From the NCBI GenBank assembly GCA_006514895.1, contig VDMG01000290.1:1-42106 (forward strand): DNA of 42,106 bases, read 5' to 3'. Shown piece by piece: positions 1,610-34,304 of the stretch. Positions within the stretch are counted from its first letter, which is position 1, and each line of letters starts with the position of its first letter. The translations under genes were made by a program, and so were the position numbers. The DNA comes from Beijerinckiaceae bacterium. Its GTDB lineage: Bacteria > Pseudomonadota > Alphaproteobacteria > Rhizobiales > Beijerinckiaceae. Below the pieces are notes generated by a model, which was not told where the DNA came from, did no database searches, and saw only the letters and a program-made list of their open reading frames with translations.

Positions 1610-1771
1610 CGTCGTGGATATGGCTTTCCCGCCCGGCGGCACCGCGGATGTTTTTCTAGTTATATTTCACGGGCCAAACGGCAGTCTTAAAAGCAACGGA
1701 TCCACGGGGATGCGCCTTTGCGGCAACCGCCAACAAGATCCGCAAGAAGCCGCGCGCTTGAGGTTCGCCGC

Positions 1772-4700
1772 ATGATCGATCGCAACGACCTGCAATGGTA
1801 TCGCGACGCGATTATCTATCAGCTGCATGTGAAATCCTTTTTCGACGCCAACAACGACGGCATTGGCGATTTCGGCGGCCTGACCCAAAAGCTTGATTAC
1901 ATCAAGGATCTCGGCGCGACCGCGGTTTGGGTCATGCCCTTCTATCCCTCGCCGCTGCGCGACGACGGCTATGACATTTCCTACTACCTCGGAATCAATC
2001 CGGCCTATGGCGGGCTGCGGGATTTCAAACGTTTCCTGCGCGAAGCGCATGAGCGTGGACTGCGGGTCATCACCGAGCTCGTGATCAATCATACATCGGA
2101 CCAGCATCCCTGGTTTAAGCGGGCGCGCGCGGCAAAGCCTGGTTCGGCAGCGCGCAATTTCTATGTTTGGGCGAGCACGGACAAAGGTTATAAAGACGCT
2201 CCGGTCATTTTCCTTGACACCGAAAAATCGAACTGGACCTGGGACGATCAAGCCAAAGCCTTTTATTGGCATCGCTTCTACGCGCATCAGCCCGATTTGA
2301 ATTTCGACAATCCCCGCGTTCTCGAAGCCGTGCTCGACGTCATGGCCTACTGGCTCGATATGGGCGTCGATGGATTGCGACTCGACGCCATCCCCTATCT
2401 CATCGAGCGGGAAGGCACGAATTGCGAAAATCTCCCGGAGTCCCACGCAGTCATCAAGAGGATTAGGGCCGCGGTCGATGCTCGCTACCCAGACCGGATG
2501 CTTCTCGCTGAGGCGAATCTTTGGCCGGAGGAAACGGCGCAATATTTCGGTCAAGGCGATGAATGCCATATGGCGTTTCATTTTCCGCTCATGCCGAGGA
2601 TCTACATGGCGCTGGCGCAGGAGGACCGGCATCCGATCACCGACATCATGCGGCAGACGCCGGAGGTCCCGGATGGCGCGCAATGGGCGATCTTTCTGCG
2701 CAACCATGACGAGATGACGCTTGCCATGGTGACCGGCACGGAGCGTGACTATCTTTGGTCCTTTTACGCCGCCGACCCGCGCGCGCGGATCAATCTTGGT
2801 ATTCGCCGCCGTCTCGCCCCTTTGCTCGAAAACGACCGGCGCAAGATCGAGCTTTTGAATTCGCTCCTGTTTTCCATGCCCGGCACGCCAATCATCTATT
2901 ATGGCGATGAGATCGGCATGGGCGACAATATCTATCTCGGCGACCGGGACGGCGTGCGCACGCCGATGCAATGGTCGCTTGATCGCAACGGCGGCTTCAG
3001 CCGTGCCGATCCGGCCAAGCTCTTCCTGCCCGCGATCCAGGACCCGGTTTATGGTTTCAGCGCCGTCAATGTCGAAGCGCAGCTCGTGAGCCCATCGAGC
3101 CTTTTGACGTGGATGCGGCGGATCATCGCGGTGCGGCGTTCGCATGTGTCATTCGGGCGAGGCTCGCTGCGCTTCCCTCATCCATCGAACCGGAAAGTCT
3201 TGGTCTATCTTCGCGAATTCCAGGGCGAGCGGATTCTCTGCGTCGCCAATGTGTCGCGGGCGCCGCAAGCGGTTGAGCTCGATCTCTCCGAATTCAAGGG
3301 TGCCGTGCCCGTCGAGCTTACTGCCGGCAGTCTCTTCCCGGCGATCGATTCGCGTTCCTATCTTTTGACATTGCCGGCCTATGGTTTCTTCTGGTTCAGG
3401 CTCGAGCCGGCCGAGGAAACCAAGGACCGCCACGACCAGCATGTGACGCCAGGGCTTTTTACGCTGGTTGCCACTGGTAAGCTCGAAACGATCCTTGCCG
3501 GGCGAGAACGCGTCGCCTTCGAGCGCACGGTCGCACCGCGCTTCTTGCCTTCGCGGCGCTGGTTTGGTCATAAAGAGACGCAGGTCGCCGGGATTTCGGT
3601 CAGGGATTTCGCCGTGCTTCGCGATGGCGGGCGGAGCCGCTTTGTTCTTCCGCTCCTCGACGTCAAACTCCCCGATGGCGGGGTCGAGAGTTATTTCGCG
3701 CCTCTTGCCGCGGAACCGGAGCACAAGGATGGACCGCCCCTTGTCCACGCCGCCGCGAGGCTGCGCCGCGGCGCCTTGACCGGCCTGCTTTATGAAGCGG
3801 AGGCCTGCGAAGGCTTCGTCCCGGCGATGGTTGTGGCGCTACGGCGCGGCGAAAGACTGGACACCGGCCAAGGTGGCAGAATCTCTTTCTTGCCAACGTC
3901 TCGTCTCGGGGCCGAGCTCATGATCGAGGCAACCGATGTCCACCGTATTGGCGCCGGACAGCGCAACTCCTCGCTCGTCCTCGCCAACCAGATGATGCTG
4001 AAAATCCGTCACCGGGTACAAATCGGCACTGACCCCGAGGTCGAGACCCTGCACTTTCTGACTGAAGTGGCACATTTTGCCAATGCTCCTCCCTTGCTCG
4101 GCGTTGTCGAATATATTGACCGCGAGGAGAACCACGCCGTTCTCGCGGTCCTGCAAACTTTCATGCGCAACCAAGGCGATGCCTGGACATGGACGCTCGG
4201 AGCATTGAAGCGCATCATCGAGGCTGCCGCCTTGACGCCGGGGCAAGACGACCGCGCCGGTCATGAGGAATTCGCAATCTATGTGCCGCACATGCGGCGG
4301 CTTGGCTTGCGCACGGCGGAAATGCATAAGGCGCTGTCGGCGCCAACCTCCGATCCAGCGTTCAAGGCCGAAACGCTGACATTCGACGATGTCTGCGAGG
4401 CAGCGGACACGGCAAGAATTATGGCCGAGCACGCCTTCACACGCCTCCGAACGGTCCCCACGAACGCAAGCGCGGACAAGCACGCCCAGGCCGAACGCCT
4501 TCTGGCCCGGCAGGAAGAGTGCTTTGCTCTGATTGATAAGCTTGTTCAAAAGCCGAATGGCGCCATCAAGATCCGCATTCACGGCGATTATTCTCTTGGC
4601 CGCCTCCTGGTCATGAAGGACGATGTGATGATCGTTGATTTTGGGGAAGGTCCTTCCATATCCCCCAGTCAGAGGCGCGCCAAGACGTCGCCGCTGCGCG

Positions 4701-5035
4701 ATGTCGCGGTCATGCTGCGCTCCCTTGCTCGTGCAGTCGCCGCTGCCAAAAGTGATCTCACAAGGTTCGTCCCCGACGCGCCGCTCGTGGCCGCAAGACT
4801 CCACGAAGAACTTGTCCTATTTTCTCAAATCTTCATCCAAGCTTATATGGAGGCCGCGAGTGGCAGCCCGATCTGGATCGAAGATGAAACCACGCGGAGA
4901 CACCTTCTCGTCCTCTATTTGCTGGCTGAATTGCTCCATGAAATCGAAACCGGGGCGGAAAGCCACCCGGAATGGACAGATACGGCCATTGATGGCGTCA
5001 ACACGATCCTCGATCGCATGGCCGAGAGAGCATGA
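1772..5035 (+). CDS. treS: Trehalose synthase (maltose alpha-D-glucosyltransferase) fused to a C-terminal maltokinase-like domain
   Basis: N-terminal GH13 motifs (WYRDAIIYQLHVKSFFDANNDGIGDFGGL, GVDGLRLDAIPYL, FLRNHDEMTL) and C-terminal maltokinase-like region (HGDYSLGRLLVMKDDVMIVDFGEGP). Start moved to MIDRND at 1772. Confidence 0.92.
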   Translation: MIDRNDLQWYRDAIIYQLHVKSFFDANNDGIGDFGGLTQKLDYIKDLGATAVWVMPFYPSPLRDDGYDISYYLGINPAYGGLRDFKRFLREAHERGLRVITELVINHTSDQHPWFKRARAAKPGSAARNFYVWASTDKGYKDAPVIFLDTEKSNWTWDDQAKAFYWHRFYAHQPDLNFDNPRVLEAVLDVMAYWLDMGVDGLRLDAIPYLIEREGTNCENLPESHAVIKRIRAAVDARYPDRMLLAEANLWPEETAQYFGQGDECHMAFHFPLMPRIYMALAQEDRHPITDIMRQTPEVPDGAQWAIFLRNHDEMTLAMVTGTERDYLWSFYAADPRARINLGIRRRLAPLLENDRRKIELLNSLLFSMPGTPIIYYGDEIGMGDNIYLGDRDGVRTPMQWSLDRNGGFSRADPAKLFLPAIQDPVYGFSAVNVEAQLVSPSSLLTWMRRIIAVRRSHVSFGRGSLRFPHPSNRKVLVYLREFQGERILCVANVSRAPQAVELDLSEFKGAVPVELTAGSLFPAIDSRSYLLTLPAYGFFWFRLEPAEETKDRHDQHVTPGLFTLVATGKLETILAGRERVAFERTVAPRFLPSRRWFGHKETQVAGISVRDFAVLRDGGRSRFVLPLLDVKLPDGGVESYFAPLAAEPEHKDGPPLVHAAARLRRGALTGLLYEAEACEGFVPAMVVALRRGERLDTGQGGRISFLPTSRLGAELMIEATDVHRIGAGQRNSSLVLANQMMLKIRHRVQIGTDPEVETLHFLTEVAHFANAPPLLGVVEYIDREENHAVLAVLQTFMRNQGDAWTWTLGALKRIIEAAALTPGQDDRAGHEEFAIYVPHMRRLGLRTAEMHKALSAPTSDPAFKAETLTFDDVCEAADTARIMAEHAFTRLRTVPTNASADKHAQAERLLARQEECFALIDKLVQKPNGAIKIRIHGDYSLGRLLVMKDDVMIVDFGEGPSISPSQRRAKTSPLRDVAVMLRSLARAVAAAKSDLTRFVPDAPLVAARLHEELVLFSQIFIQAYMEAASGSPIWIEDETTRRHLLVLYLLAELLHEIETGAESHPEWTDTAIDGVNTILDRMAERA

Positions 5036-5688: not shown

Positions 5689-5716
5689 TTGACGTCCGAG
5701 AAGATTTTTATCCTTG

Positions 5717-5742
5717 AGCCCGGTGGATGCCGGGCTTTTTTT
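5717..5742 (+). terminator. Rho-independent terminator after rpsT
   Basis: Stem-loop AGCCCGG-TGGATG-CCGGGCT followed directly by a T-run (gcccggtggatgccgggctttttttt). Confidence 0.8.
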
Positions 5743-6041
5743 GCGGCCAAAAAAGCGAACGCAGTCGTCATTTTGACTCTGTTGGGTACCGCACAACCAA
5801 TTTCCATGCAACTCAATGACTTGTCCTTAAAGCCACGCGACACCTTCGAGCAAAGCCGTTTTTCCCCTCGCGACGGCCCTGCACATTGAAATTTTTTGCA
5901 ACCTTGTCCAGCGGCCAGAAGACTTCAATCCCGCTTTTTTCCACCCCTTTTGCGCGCCCTATGGACTCGCGCGAAATCAGGCGGTTACGCGCGCTACCGG
6001 ATCATGCATATTTGCTCCTGCAAAACTGATATTATCAATCA

Positions 6042-6066: not shown

Positions 6067-6081
6067 TTAAGGATTCATTAA
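6067..6081 (+). promoter_or_regulatory. Candidate CtrA box TTAA-N7-TTAA with an embedded GANTC (CcrM) site
   Basis: TTAAGGATTCATTAA: two TTAA half-sites separated by exactly 7 nt; the spacer contains GATTC. Confidence 0.5.
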
Positions 6082-6616
6082 ACCGTGCTTGCGGACCGTC
6101 TCGCCGATGCTAAAGTCTCCTTCCGGTCTGGAACTGGCTAACTCCAGATTTCGAGACGGATCTCCTGTGAGTTCTCCCGTTCGTATGAGTGTTTAGCGTG
6201 TAAAGGCGCGTCGTGATCCTGTATAACAAATTTATATGGGCGGGTTACGTCACGCAATGGTTTAGTATATACGCTGGAAAGACTTTCTACACGATGCCGG
6301 TTATTGGTCTCCAGAGTGTTTCGTTCGGGTCTTCTTTTGATTTGATGTAAACAAGCTCTGTGGTTCTCAATGCGGAGCGAAGGGGGATATACGACCGTGC
6401 TAGCATTCATTGAATATCCGAATGTTCTGTTTCCCCCTGCGCGCGGAAGTGTCGTGGCAGAGCGCATTCAAAGGGCTTATTGGGCTTCAACCCGGCATCG
6501 TCGGCGCATTCGCGGCTAGTTTCGCCCCTTAATCTTTTTTCAGTCATCGTCCATTTCTGGCGCCGGCATTTGCGCGGACGCTGTTGCTTTGCCTTGATTC
6601 CTAAGGAAGAAGACCG

Positions 6617-29420: not shown

Positions 29421-29496
29421 AGCGTGACGGTGTTCTATCTCGCAATTCAAAATCAGCCAGCGATTGACTCACGCGCCGATCGGTTTAGTGTCGCTG

Positions 29497-29695
29497 GCGT
29501 AACGGTCCCTCGCTTCGAGGGGTAAAAGGGAATGTGGTGGGGCGCCATCTCTTAAGATCCGCGCATGAAGCCACAGCTGCCCCCGCAACTGTCAGCGGGT
29601 AGCCTTACGCCGGTACGCCACTGGGATGCGGGCAACCGCGACCTGGGAAGGCGGCGCAAGGCAATGATCCGCCAGCCAGGAAACCTGCCGTTCGA
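29497..29695 (+). promoter_or_regulatory. Cobalamin (AdoCbl) riboswitch upstream of cobW
   Basis: Conserved blocks AAAAGGGAAtgtGGTG, GAAGCCACAGCTGCCCCCGCAACTGT, CACTGGG, CTGGGAAGGC and B12 box GCCAGCCAGGAAACCTGCC (29671-29689). Boundaries approximate. Confidence 0.92.
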
Positions 29696-29825
29696 TCGAG
29701 CGAGGGCCGGCGGGGTGACCCGGCCACTCATCGATGCCGGCACGGCTGCCCGCTGCCGGCGAAGGAGCCGGGTTCGTCCGGCTCCCCCAATTAAAGCACC
29801 CGCCGACGGCCGAGGGACCGGGTGC

Positions 29826-30899
29826 ATGCTCATGAATCGTCTTTCCAAAATCCCTGCCAAAATGCCTGTCAAAATCCCGGCAACGATCGTCACCGGCTTT
29901 CTTGGCGCGGGGAAGACGACCCTCATTCGCCATCTCCTGGAAAATCCCGAAGGCCGCCGCATTGCCCTCGTCATTAACGAATTCGGCGATATCGGCATCG
30001 ATGCGCAGATCTTGAATGGCTGCGGCGATCTCGCCTGCGGCGCCCAAAAAATCATCGAACTCGCCAATGGCTGCATCTGCTGCACCGTCGCCGACGATTT
30101 TTTGCCCGCGATCGAGAAGCTTCTCGCGCTTGATCCGCTCCCTGACCATATCGTCATCGAGACCTCTGGCCTTGCCTTGCCAAAGCCCTTGGTGAAGGCC
30201 TTCGATTGGCCGGCCATTCGCGCGCGTCTAACCGTCGATGGTGTGATCGCGGTTGTCGACGGCAAGGCGGTCGCCGATGGACGCTTCGCCGACGATCCAG
30301 CCAAATTGGCGCGCCAGCGCGAGGCCGATCCTTCCATCGCGCATGACAATCCGCTCGAAGAAGTCTTCCAGGATCAAGTTTTGTGCGCCGATCTCATCCT
30401 GCTCAATAAGGCCGATCTTATCGATTTATCCGAGCAACGCCGCATCGCCGCCGACATCGCGGCGCTTGTTTCCCGTGCCGTAAAAATCGTGCCCGCCCGG
30501 GAAGGTCGGATCGACCCCTCTATTTTGCTCGGCCTCGATGCCGCCGCCGAAGACGATCTCGCCGCGCGGCCCTCGCATCATGATGGATTAATCGAGCACG
30601 ATCACGACGATTTCGACAGCGCCGTTTTTGAAATTAGCGCAATCGCCGATAGCGACGCGTGGCTTCGCCGCTTGGTCGATATCGCGGAGCGCCACGATGT
30701 CTTGCGGATCAAAGGCTTTGTCGAGGTGCGCGGCAAGCCAATGCGGCTCCTCGTGCAAGGCGTCGGCAACCGCTTTAGAAAAAGTTTCGACCGGCCTTGG
30801 GGCGCCGGAGAACCTCGTCGGGGGCGCCTCGTTGTCATCGGCGCAAAAGGTCTCGACAAGGCGTCGATCGAACAGCTGCTGGCAAGCGGAGAAGCTTGA
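29826..30899 (+). CDS. cobW: Cobalamin biosynthesis protein CobW (COG0523 GTPase)
   Basis: VTGFLGAGKTTLIRHLL, CXCC motif GCICCTV, NKADLID, His/Asp-rich stretch HHDGLIEHDHDDFD. The supplied ORF start (29565) lies inside the riboswitch, so start trimmed. Confidence 0.93.
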   Translation: MLMNRLSKIPAKMPVKIPATIVTGFLGAGKTTLIRHLLENPEGRRIALVINEFGDIGIDAQILNGCGDLACGAQKIIELANGCICCTVADDFLPAIEKLLALDPLPDHIVIETSGLALPKPLVKAFDWPAIRARLTVDGVIAVVDGKAVADGRFADDPAKLARQREADPSIAHDNPLEEVFQDQVLCADLILLNKADLIDLSEQRRIAADIAALVSRAVKIVPAREGRIDPSILLGLDAAAEDDLAARPSHHDGLIEHDHDDFDSAVFEISAIADSDAWLRRLVDIAERHDVLRIKGFVEVRGKPMRLLVQGVGNRFRKSFDRPWGAGEPRRGRLVVIGAKGLDKASIEQLLASGEA

Positions 30900-30902
30900 T
30901 CC

Positions 30903-33900
30903 ATGCATCTCCTCCGGACGGAAACGCGGTCGTTCGACGAAGCTGAAGCCGCCGTTGATCTCGGACAATCCCCGGCCGAGATCTTGTTTCTTTCTTTTTC
31001 CGACAGCGATCTCAGCCTTGTCGCGACGGCCGCGCAACGGCGCCCGCACGGCGCCATGAGCCTGCGGCTCGCCAATCTCGCCTCACTCAAACATCCCTAT
31101 TCGGTCGATCTCTATATCGAGAAGGCGGCGAGCCAAGCGCGCTTTGTCCTCATCCGCCTGCTCGGCGGCCTTGACTATTGGCGCTACGGCATCGAGGAAT
31201 TTTCCAGCGCGGCGCGCGCCAAAAATTTCAGCCTTGCCATCGTGCCGGGCGACGCGACGGAAGACGCCCGGCTTGGCGCCGCCTCGACATTGCCGGCTGG
31301 TGATCTCCGCCATATTCACGCCGCCTTCCAGCATGGCGGGACGGAACACATCGCTATGGTTCTCGATTTTGCCGCGAACTATGCGCGCGCGCCTCTTGGC
31401 TGGTGTGAACCTTTTCTTTCGTTCACGCTTCCGACGGCAGGCCGTTTCGAGGCGGGCTGCCGTAAGCGCGATTGCACCATAGGCCAGGCGCTCGTCGTCT
31501 TCTACCGTTCCCTAATGCTTGCCGGGGACACGGCGCCGATCAACGCTCTCGCGGACGCGCTCGCCGCGCGCGGGCTCGACGTCACCGCGATTTTTGTTGC
31601 GAGCCTCAAGGACGTGGAAGCCATCGCCTTTATTCGCGCCGCACTCGCCCGCGATAGGCCTGCTGTCATCGTCAATACGACGGGCTTTTCGGCCCGGCTC
31701 GATGCAGAGGCAGGCGTTCTCGACGGTGCCGATGCGCCGGTCCTGCAAGCGATCTTCGCCGGCGAGACGGAGGCGCATTGGCGGGAAAACCCGCGCGGCC
31801 TTGGTGCCGCCGATCTTGCCATGAATGTCGTCCTACCGGAAATGGACGGGCGTTTGATTACCCGCGCGATTGCCTGCAAGGCGGAGGCAGGACATCGGCC
31901 GGATCTCGAATTCACACCCCGCATTCACGCGCCTCAGCCCTCGCGCGTAAACTTTGTCGCGGACTTCGCCGCGGCCTGGGTGAAGTTGCGTAGAACCCCG
32001 CGCGCGAATCGCAAAATCGCCTGCGTCCTTTCGGATTATCCGGGCAAGGAAGGGCGTAGTGGCTATGCCGTCGGTCTCGACACGGGAAAGAGCGTCGCCT
32101 CGATTGCCAAATCCCTTCGTGAAGCCGGATATGACATCGGGCCGCTCCCGCACCCGGACGCATTGATGCAGCATCTCGAAAAGGTGGCTCCGGCCGAACG
32201 CCTGACGCTCAGCGATTACATCTCGGTCCTCGATGCCATGCCTCCGGACTTCGTACAACCTATGCTCGCGCATTGGGGCCCGCCGGACGCGGAGGCTCCC
32301 GGCGGCAGCTTCGCGTTCCCGGTGCTGCGCGCCAAAAATTTACTTGTCACATTGCAGCCCGATCGCGGCACCGCCGCAAATCGCAAGGCGGATTATCATA
32401 ATACGGGATTGCCGCCGCGCCATTCCTACGTCGCCTTCTATGTCTGGCTCCGCCAATATGAAAAGATCGATGCAATGATCCATTGCGGCACCCATGGCAC
32501 GCTTGAATGGCTGCCTGGCAAGGCTGTGGCGCTTACGGACGAGTGCGCACCCGAGGCGGTGCTTGGAGCACTGCCCGTCATTTACCCTTTTATTGTCAAC
32601 AATCCTGGCGAGGCCGCGCAGGCCAAACGGCGTATTTGCGCGCTCACCATCGGCCATATGACGCCGCCTCTGACACTTGCCGGGAGCCATGGCCCGGCGC
32701 TCGAAATCGAAGCCCTGGTTGATGAATATGCGATCGCTGAATCGCTCGATCCCAAGCGCGCGCGGCTATTGGCGCAAGCCATCCTCGCGCGGGCGAAAGA
32801 GGCAGGATTGCTGCAAGACAGCGGCCTACGGGGCACTGCCGATCCGGCCGTTGCCTTGCGCCATCTCGACGCTTGGCTTTGCGATCTCAAGGATATGAGG
32901 ATTGCCGATGGCTTGCATGTTTTTGGGCAGTCGCCCGAGGCCACCCTGCGGGATGCAACCGTGGAAACGCTCGCGCAGACGCTCCGGCAAGGTTGCACGC
33001 AGGAAGCAGACGGCGGCCCGTCTCTGCCGGAGCAAATGCGTGCTCTTATCGATCGCTGCGGGGAAGCGGAAAGCACTTCACTCCTTGCCGCGCTTGACGG
33101 CCGCTTCGTCGTGCCCGGCCCCGGCGGCGCGCCGTCGCGTGGACGCGTCGACGTGCTCCCCACCGGACGCAATCTCTATGGGATCGATCCGCGCGCGGTG
33201 CCGACCCGCACCGCCTGGGAAATCGGTCAAAATGCCGCGACCGAAGTCCTGAACCGCCATGTCCAGGATCATGGCGAGTGGCCGAAGGCAATTGTCATGG
33301 ACCTCTGGGCGAGCGCTACGATGCGCACCGGCGGCGACGATCTCGCGCAGGCGTTCGCGCTCATGGGTGTGAGACCAATTTGGGATTATGCGTCTTCGCG
33401 CGTTACCGGCTTCGAGATCCTTTCTCCCGCGTGCCTAAAACATCCGCGCGTCGATGTCACCTTGCGGATCTCCGGACTTTTCCGCGATGTCTTTCCGGCT
33501 CAGATCGCCTTGTTCGATCAGGCCGTGCAAGCCTTGAGCGAACGCGACGAAGACGATGACATCAATCCGCTCGCGGCCGCGCGCAGGCTAGCACCGGGAA
33601 TTTTCTTCCGCGTGTTCGGCGCCGCGCCGGGCATCTACGGGATTGGTCTTACGCGCGCGATCGACGAGAACTCCTCGCTCTCGCGCGAAAAACTTGGCGC
33701 GCGCTATATTGCTGCAGCCTCGCACGCCTATGGCGGTGCGCAAGGCGACGGCATCGCGACAGAAGCTTTCGCAGGACGCGTCGCGGCCGCCGATGCCCTC
33801 ATTCATGTGCAAGATCAAGACGAGCAGGACATTCTCGACGCCGACTCCATCGTCGATCATGCCGGTGGCTTTGCCGCTGCCGCGAAGATGCTCGGGAACG

Positions 33901-34304
33901 ACGCTCCGGTCTATCATGTCGAGTCTGCGCGCCCCGGCGCCCTCAAGGTGCGCACATTGGAAGAGGAAGTAGCCCGCGTCGTGCGCGCCCGCGCAACGAA
34001 CCCACGCTGGATCGCCGGGCAGATGCGCCATGGCCCTCGCGGCGCCGCCGAAATCGCCGGGACGGTAGATAATCTCTTTGCTCTCGCGGTGCTGACCGAT
34101 GCGGTGGCTAGCCGGCATTTCGAGCTTCTTTTCGAAGCGACGCTTGGCACACCTTCGGTGCGGGATTTTCTTGTCGGCGCCAATCCGAAGGCCGCGCGCG
34201 CGATCGTCAAGCGCTTCGAGGAGGCGCTTTCGCGCGGCTTTTGGCAGAGTCGGCGCAATTCGACCCTTGCCTGTCTCGTTTCGACGCGGGAGACACTCGC
34301 ATGA
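30903..34304 (+). CDS. cobN: Cobaltochelatase subunit CobN
   Basis: LSDYPGKEGRSGYAVGLDTGKSVA, MIHCGTHGTLEWLPGKAVAL, PTGRNLYGIDPRAVPTRTAWEIG, SHAYGGAQGDGIA. Confidence 0.95.
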   Translation: MHLLRTETRSFDEAEAAVDLGQSPAEILFLSFSDSDLSLVATAAQRRPHGAMSLRLANLASLKHPYSVDLYIEKAASQARFVLIRLLGGLDYWRYGIEEFSSAARAKNFSLAIVPGDATEDARLGAASTLPAGDLRHIHAAFQHGGTEHIAMVLDFAANYARAPLGWCEPFLSFTLPTAGRFEAGCRKRDCTIGQALVVFYRSLMLAGDTAPINALADALAARGLDVTAIFVASLKDVEAIAFIRAALARDRPAVIVNTTGFSARLDAEAGVLDGADAPVLQAIFAGETEAHWRENPRGLGAADLAMNVVLPEMDGRLITRAIACKAEAGHRPDLEFTPRIHAPQPSRVNFVADFAAAWVKLRRTPRANRKIACVLSDYPGKEGRSGYAVGLDTGKSVASIAKSLREAGYDIGPLPHPDALMQHLEKVAPAERLTLSDYISVLDAMPPDFVQPMLAHWGPPDAEAPGGSFAFPVLRAKNLLVTLQPDRGTAANRKADYHNTGLPPRHSYVAFYVWLRQYEKIDAMIHCGTHGTLEWLPGKAVALTDECAPEAVLGALPVIYPFIVNNPGEAAQAKRRICALTIGHMTPPLTLAGSHGPALEIEALVDEYAIAESLDPKRARLLAQAILARAKEAGLLQDSGLRGTADPAVALRHLDAWLCDLKDMRIADGLHVFGQSPEATLRDATVETLAQTLRQGCTQEADGGPSLPEQMRALIDRCGEAESTSLLAALDGRFVVPGPGGAPSRGRVDVLPTGRNLYGIDPRAVPTRTAWEIGQNAATEVLNRHVQDHGEWPKAIVMDLWASATMRTGGDDLAQAFALMGVRPIWDYASSRVTGFEILSPACLKHPRVDVTLRISGLFRDVFPAQIALFDQAVQALSERDEDDDINPLAAARRLAPGIFFRVFGAAPGIYGIGLTRAIDENSSLSREKLGARYIAAASHAYGGAQGDGIATEAFAGRVAAADALIHVQDQDEQDILDADSIVDHAGGFAAAAKMLGNDAPVYHVESARPGALKVRTLEEEVARVVRARATNPRWIAGQMRHGPRGAAEIAGTVDNLFALAVLTDAVASRHFELLFEATLGTPSVRDFLVGANPKAARAIVKRFEEALSRGFWQSRRNSTLACLVSTRETLA

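Follow-up and report, generated by a model that had tools for sequence, protein, structure and literature searches.

A putative CtrA box at the predicted dnaA promoter of a Beijerinckiaceae bacterium and the recurrence of TTAA-N7-TTAA upstream of dnaA in the order

The window analyzed here is a stretch of 42,106 nucleotides from the forward strand of a Beijerinckiaceae contig (VDMG01000290.1), in which dnaA lies downstream of rpsT and in the same orientation (Table 1). A dnaA match is present in 60/60 relatives, the named ones including Methylocapsa acidiphila, Methylocella tundrae and Beijerinckia mobilis. Behind rpsT, the sequence shows a terminator-like hairpin with a T-run at about 5716-5742, and comparison of the rpsT-dnaA gap with Rfam returned no family match. 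Elsewhere, the window encodes a trehalose synthase/maltokinase fusion-like protein with TreS N-terminal and C-terminal domains (1718-5032, + strand; TIGR02456, TIGR02457), a cobalamin riboswitch (29486-29706, + strand; RF00174, 113.7 bits), a CobW ORF (NCBIfam) listed as 29565-30896 and CobN (NCBIfam) at 30903-34301. The CobW match begins at residue 103, hence the true start of this gene is probably located after the riboswitch.

Table 1. Features of the rpsT-dnaA region, in coordinates of the window
Feature	Position	Strand	Basis or remark
rpsT (30S ribosomal protein S20), upstream neighbor of dnaA	5422..5688	+	NCBIfam TIGR00029
Conserved block with CAA-N4-TTG (5814-5823)	5794..5832		Genus alignment, conserved windows
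Conserved block GAAATCAGGCGGTTA	5973..5987		Second best-conserved window in the gap
CtrA-type box TTAAGGATTCATTAA, TTAA-N7-TTAA	6067..6081		Exact match, the only one in the window
GATTC, CcrM-type GANTC site in the box spacer	6072..6076		Exact match
Predicted -35 element TTGCGG of the dnaA promoter	6089..6094	+	7 bp after the box
Predicted -10 element TAAAGT, extended TGC at 6108-6110	6111..6116	+	16-bp spacer to the -35 element
Candidate 40-codon leader ORF, GTG start, AAGGGGG upstream	6397..6519	+	Between promoter and dnaA
dnaA	6617..8125	+	NCBIfam TIGR00362, 467 bits

Alignment of the gap with those of 18 relatives places its best-conserved window over the -10 region (6104-6118), and the window covering the -35 region (6081-6095) is one of the top four 15-bp windows by conservation in the genus. 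A stricter form of the -10 element, TATG[CT]TA, occurs in 11 relatives. Transcription of dnaA would begin near 6123 from a promoter predicted about 500 nt before the gene, leaving a leader of about 490 nt. This leader may encode a peptide: the candidate ORF is preceded by a strong Shine-Dalgarno-like sequence, has an Arg/His-rich end and is matched by similarly placed ORFs in many genus members. No Pfam match was obtained for it, and its differences between the genome under study and its closest relative (11/5/9 by codon position) give no clear coding signature. Further upstream, the CAA-N4-TTG of the first, strongly conserved block resembles the NtrX motif CAAN2-5TTG found at the Sinorhizobium meliloti dnaA promoter (PMC9223101). 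Both genes would then carry a second regulator motif upstream, conserved here within the genus; unlike the S. meliloti NtrX site, however, the one here is a candidate, in a block some 270 bp ahead of the promoter.

The preliminary description of this DNA had reported a CtrA-type site with exact half-sites, a 7-nt spacing and an internal GATTC upstream of dnaA, and its sequence and coordinates proved exact in every respect. Taken by itself, the motif match is unremarkable, because 11/100 shuffled windows contain at least one exact TTAA-N7-TTAA (one observed in the 42 kb versus 0.12 expected from shuffles). GANTC sites number 111 in the window, where base composition predicts 153 and a first-order Markov model 224, and the rpsT-dnaA gap displays no local enrichment (4 versus about 3.5-3.8 expected). 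The CtrA ChIP-seq consensus is TTAA-N7-TTAAC, in which the final C is preferred and not invariant (PMC7200025). The dnaA box lacks this C behind its second half, the two halves reading TTAAG and TTAAA, as do several other promoter boxes of the same genome that have no C after TTAA. In Caulobacter crescentus, full CtrA boxes usually begin around -35 (PMC4287350). The arrangement is shared in that a TTAA-N7-TTAA adjoins a cell-cycle gene promoter; it differs in its target, dnaA, and in its position, since the box would start about 56 nt before the predicted start site, some 17-20 nt further upstream.

The draft genome under study (G000, 3.03 Mb) encodes the expected regulators. Searched with Caulobacter queries, it yielded CtrA (G000:C285, 84% identity over 191 aa) and CcrM (61% identity); these queries appear sound because the matches are strong and full-length. 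GcrA is also encoded. Exact TTAA-N7-TTAA occurs 18 times, the counts of TTAA pairs for spacings N5 to N9 being 2, 4, 18, 11 and 15, which is a mild and weak over-representation of N7 across the whole genome. At this density about 0.006 sites would be expected in the 930-bp gap, a figure to be read knowing that the gap was singled out post hoc. In this genome, 12/17 exact N7 sites lie 30-200 bp before gene starts, versus 4/22 N8/N9 sites (hand-tallied; Fisher p = 0.0025, an optimistic value as the range was picked after viewing the list). Genes downstream of exact N7 boxes include minC, smc and ftsK, the latter box being common to C. crescentus (PMC4287350) and to this genome. At minC, the box reads exactly TTAAC-N6-TTAAC in 13/13 of the genus members that were read in register, and also in G017, which belongs to another genus; left out of this count are G004 (truncated locus read out of register, with an N7 motif at -858) and G012 (without a minC match). 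The minC box illustrates a well-kept CtrA box in this genus. Another N7 box, TTAACGAAAACTTAA, is found in locus L069 (G000:C242, locus position 2081), in which neither a hemE motif nor a DnaA-box cluster was detected. A similar one, TTAACTTTTCGTTAA, lies 231 bp from a hemE motif in the complete relative G010 (G010:C1:2017382).

The dnaA box is kept far less well than the minC box, and on its own is weakly conserved in the genus. Both halves are retained only in the closest relative, G006 (TTAAGGATTCGTTAA), and the box window sits at the 49th percentile of 15-bp windows for genus-wide conservation. G000 and G006 are identical at 14/15 positions of the box, a level that 15% of windows match, and they group together in the DnaA tree, followed by G001. 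At the same position, G004 reads GGATTCGTTAA and G001 reads GAATCATTCAAA, and G005 and G013 both read TGAATTTTTCGTTAA, that is, TGAA-N7-TTAA. Most genus members carry an A/T-rich tract instead of the motif, for example GAATTTTTCGTTAAG or CGAAATTTTGG, ahead of the same promoter. Such motif-less tracts, the average conservation of the site and the absence from both halves of the C seen at minC would all be accounted for if the box were an A/T-rich UP-like promoter element that matches TTAA-N7-TTAA by chance in two sister species. This explanation seems rather unlikely to us: it fits poorly with the TGAA-N7-TTAA found at the same place in G005 and G013, and A/T richness would not be expected to produce the sharp N7-only enrichment that appears upstream of dnaA in two sets of genomes.

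That enrichment is spacing-specific and order-wide. In 119 distinct upstream regions, TTAA pairs with spacings of 3 to 11 number 0, 2, 2, 1, 15, 2, 3, 3 and 0. Within 103 rpsT-dnaA gaps, N7 pairs number 15 (Poisson about 1e-11, or 1.6e-8 counting 12 only), versus 0-3 (mean 1.3) for any other spacing between 2 and 15. A second set of genomes, chosen from a coordinate list with sequences unseen and sharing genera with the first, gave 10 N7 pairs in 65 gaps versus a mean of 0.8 per other spacing (2.4e-8). These counts ignore relatedness, and several of the 25 boxes come from sister genomes; genera with conserved boxes are counted more than once, the TTAACCATTTATTAA and TTAACAAAGCGTTAA types, for instance, each being represented by three genomes. 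Among control tetramers, AATT, TTTT and AAAA display a mild and broad excess near N7, the A/T-tract excess having a period near 11 bp, and TTAA stands out by a far sharper peak. When up to one mismatch is tolerated, sites are most frequent 300-400 bp after rpsT, and the boxes lie more than 400 nt from dnaA in 9/10 cases of the second set and at all but one of the first-set positions listed. In the first set, TTG[CT] follows the box by 5-21 bp in 10/15 cases, versus a background of 16-25%; the promoter-adjacent arrangement is nevertheless not general, since TTG[CT] stands at promoter distance in 4/10 boxes of the second set.

The GATTC inside the spacer raises a separate question. The preliminary description proposed that the overlap of the two signals could couple hemimethylation state to CtrA binding at dnaA, and a methylation-sensitive switch of this kind, whereby hemimethylation of the GATTC after replication of dnaA would alter the action of CtrA or GcrA or CtrA would shield the site from CcrM, has a precedent in a synthetic construct. 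Where a CtrA box and a GANTC were made to overlap, CtrA blocked CcrM (PMC5172544), and in Caulobacter the transcription of dnaA and ctrA responds to promoter methylation, GANTC near start sites going along with cell-cycle timing (PMC4287350). The site studied here resembles the synthetic promoter (PMC5172544, Fig. 6A) in having GANTC inside the CtrA box, with the difference that the latter is an engineered reporter in which CtrA occludes CcrM, and ours a natural sequence. Both CcrM and GcrA are encoded, and the GATTC would lie about 47-51 nt before the predicted start site, a GANTC-control criterion being a location within 50 bp upstream. A GANTC is kept in G000, G006 and G004, and in G001 as GAATC; most genus members lack it in that tract. 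From the genus alignment and the DnaA tree it follows that only a small clade has the GANTC, and only two genomes the exact TTAA pair. The overlap does not generalize either: GANTC falls inside 2/18 N7 sites of the genome and 2/25 order-wide dnaA boxes, the latter two being those of the G000/G006 sister pair. With so few boxes containing it, methylation coupling is a lineage-specific guess. We regard such a switch as improbable, and the spacer GATTC probably arose, in this lineage, as a by-product of the sequence around it.

A role of the rpsT-dnaA gap as the replication origin, at which CtrA would repress initiation as it does at the Caulobacter origin, was also considered. The gap is filled with conserved blocks, and in the complete relative G010 the GC skew changes sign near dnaA. 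However, DnaA-box-like 9-mers are at chance level in the window and do not form a cluster in the gap, the skew of G001 does not turn at dnaA, which suggests an origin elsewhere, and hemE, the usual neighbor of alphaproteobacterial origins, is 61 kb away in G010 with an N7 box of its own. For these reasons an origin in the gap is disfavored, and we judge it highly improbable.

We lean towards TTAAGGATTCATTAA being a functional CtrA box at the main dnaA promoter, one instance of an input that is recurrent in the order and turns over fast. The order-wide, spacing-specific enrichment and the genome context favor this reading; poor conservation in the genus, the missing flanking C and the unusual position weaken it. 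Of the interpretation as a CtrA site offered in the preliminary description, what stands is backed by the encoded regulators, the cell-cycle promoters, the minC box and the enrichment in the order, and what finds no support is conservation of this box across the genus and the generality of the GANTC overlap. Under the favored reading, in this methanotroph-like bacterium of the Methylocapsa/Methylocella type of Beijerinckiaceae, phosphorylated CtrA would bind the box just upstream of the -35 element of the main dnaA promoter and change dnaA transcription, more likely upward than downward, during the part of the cell cycle in which CtrA is active. Should the GATTC matter, its remethylation by CcrM would be delayed while CtrA occupies the box. 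A bolder version, in which CtrA directly controls dnaA through a distal promoter across much of the order, unseen by a survey limited to 400 nt, and the box of the sister pair has captured a GANTC, so that occupancy and replication-dependent methylation share 15 bp, appears to us quite improbable.

Motif-based prediction of CtrA targets in this order was previously performed by Brilli et al. (2010; PMC2877005), who noted that CtrA sites were missing ahead of dnaA in rhizobia. Their survey did not reach further than 400 nt from the start codon, whereas most boxes described here are located beyond 400 nt. Our search of the open-access literature found no published CtrA site at dnaA in the order. 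CtrA restrains replication, and the question is whether it also acts on transcription of the initiator gene dnaA, a matter that the earlier survey left open for rhizobia-type bacteria. The N7 enrichment beyond 400 nt provides a list of genomes and coordinates at which a direct link between CtrA and dnaA may be sought. As for the GANTC overlap, if functional, it would represent a natural counterpart of the published synthetic competition between CtrA and CcrM.
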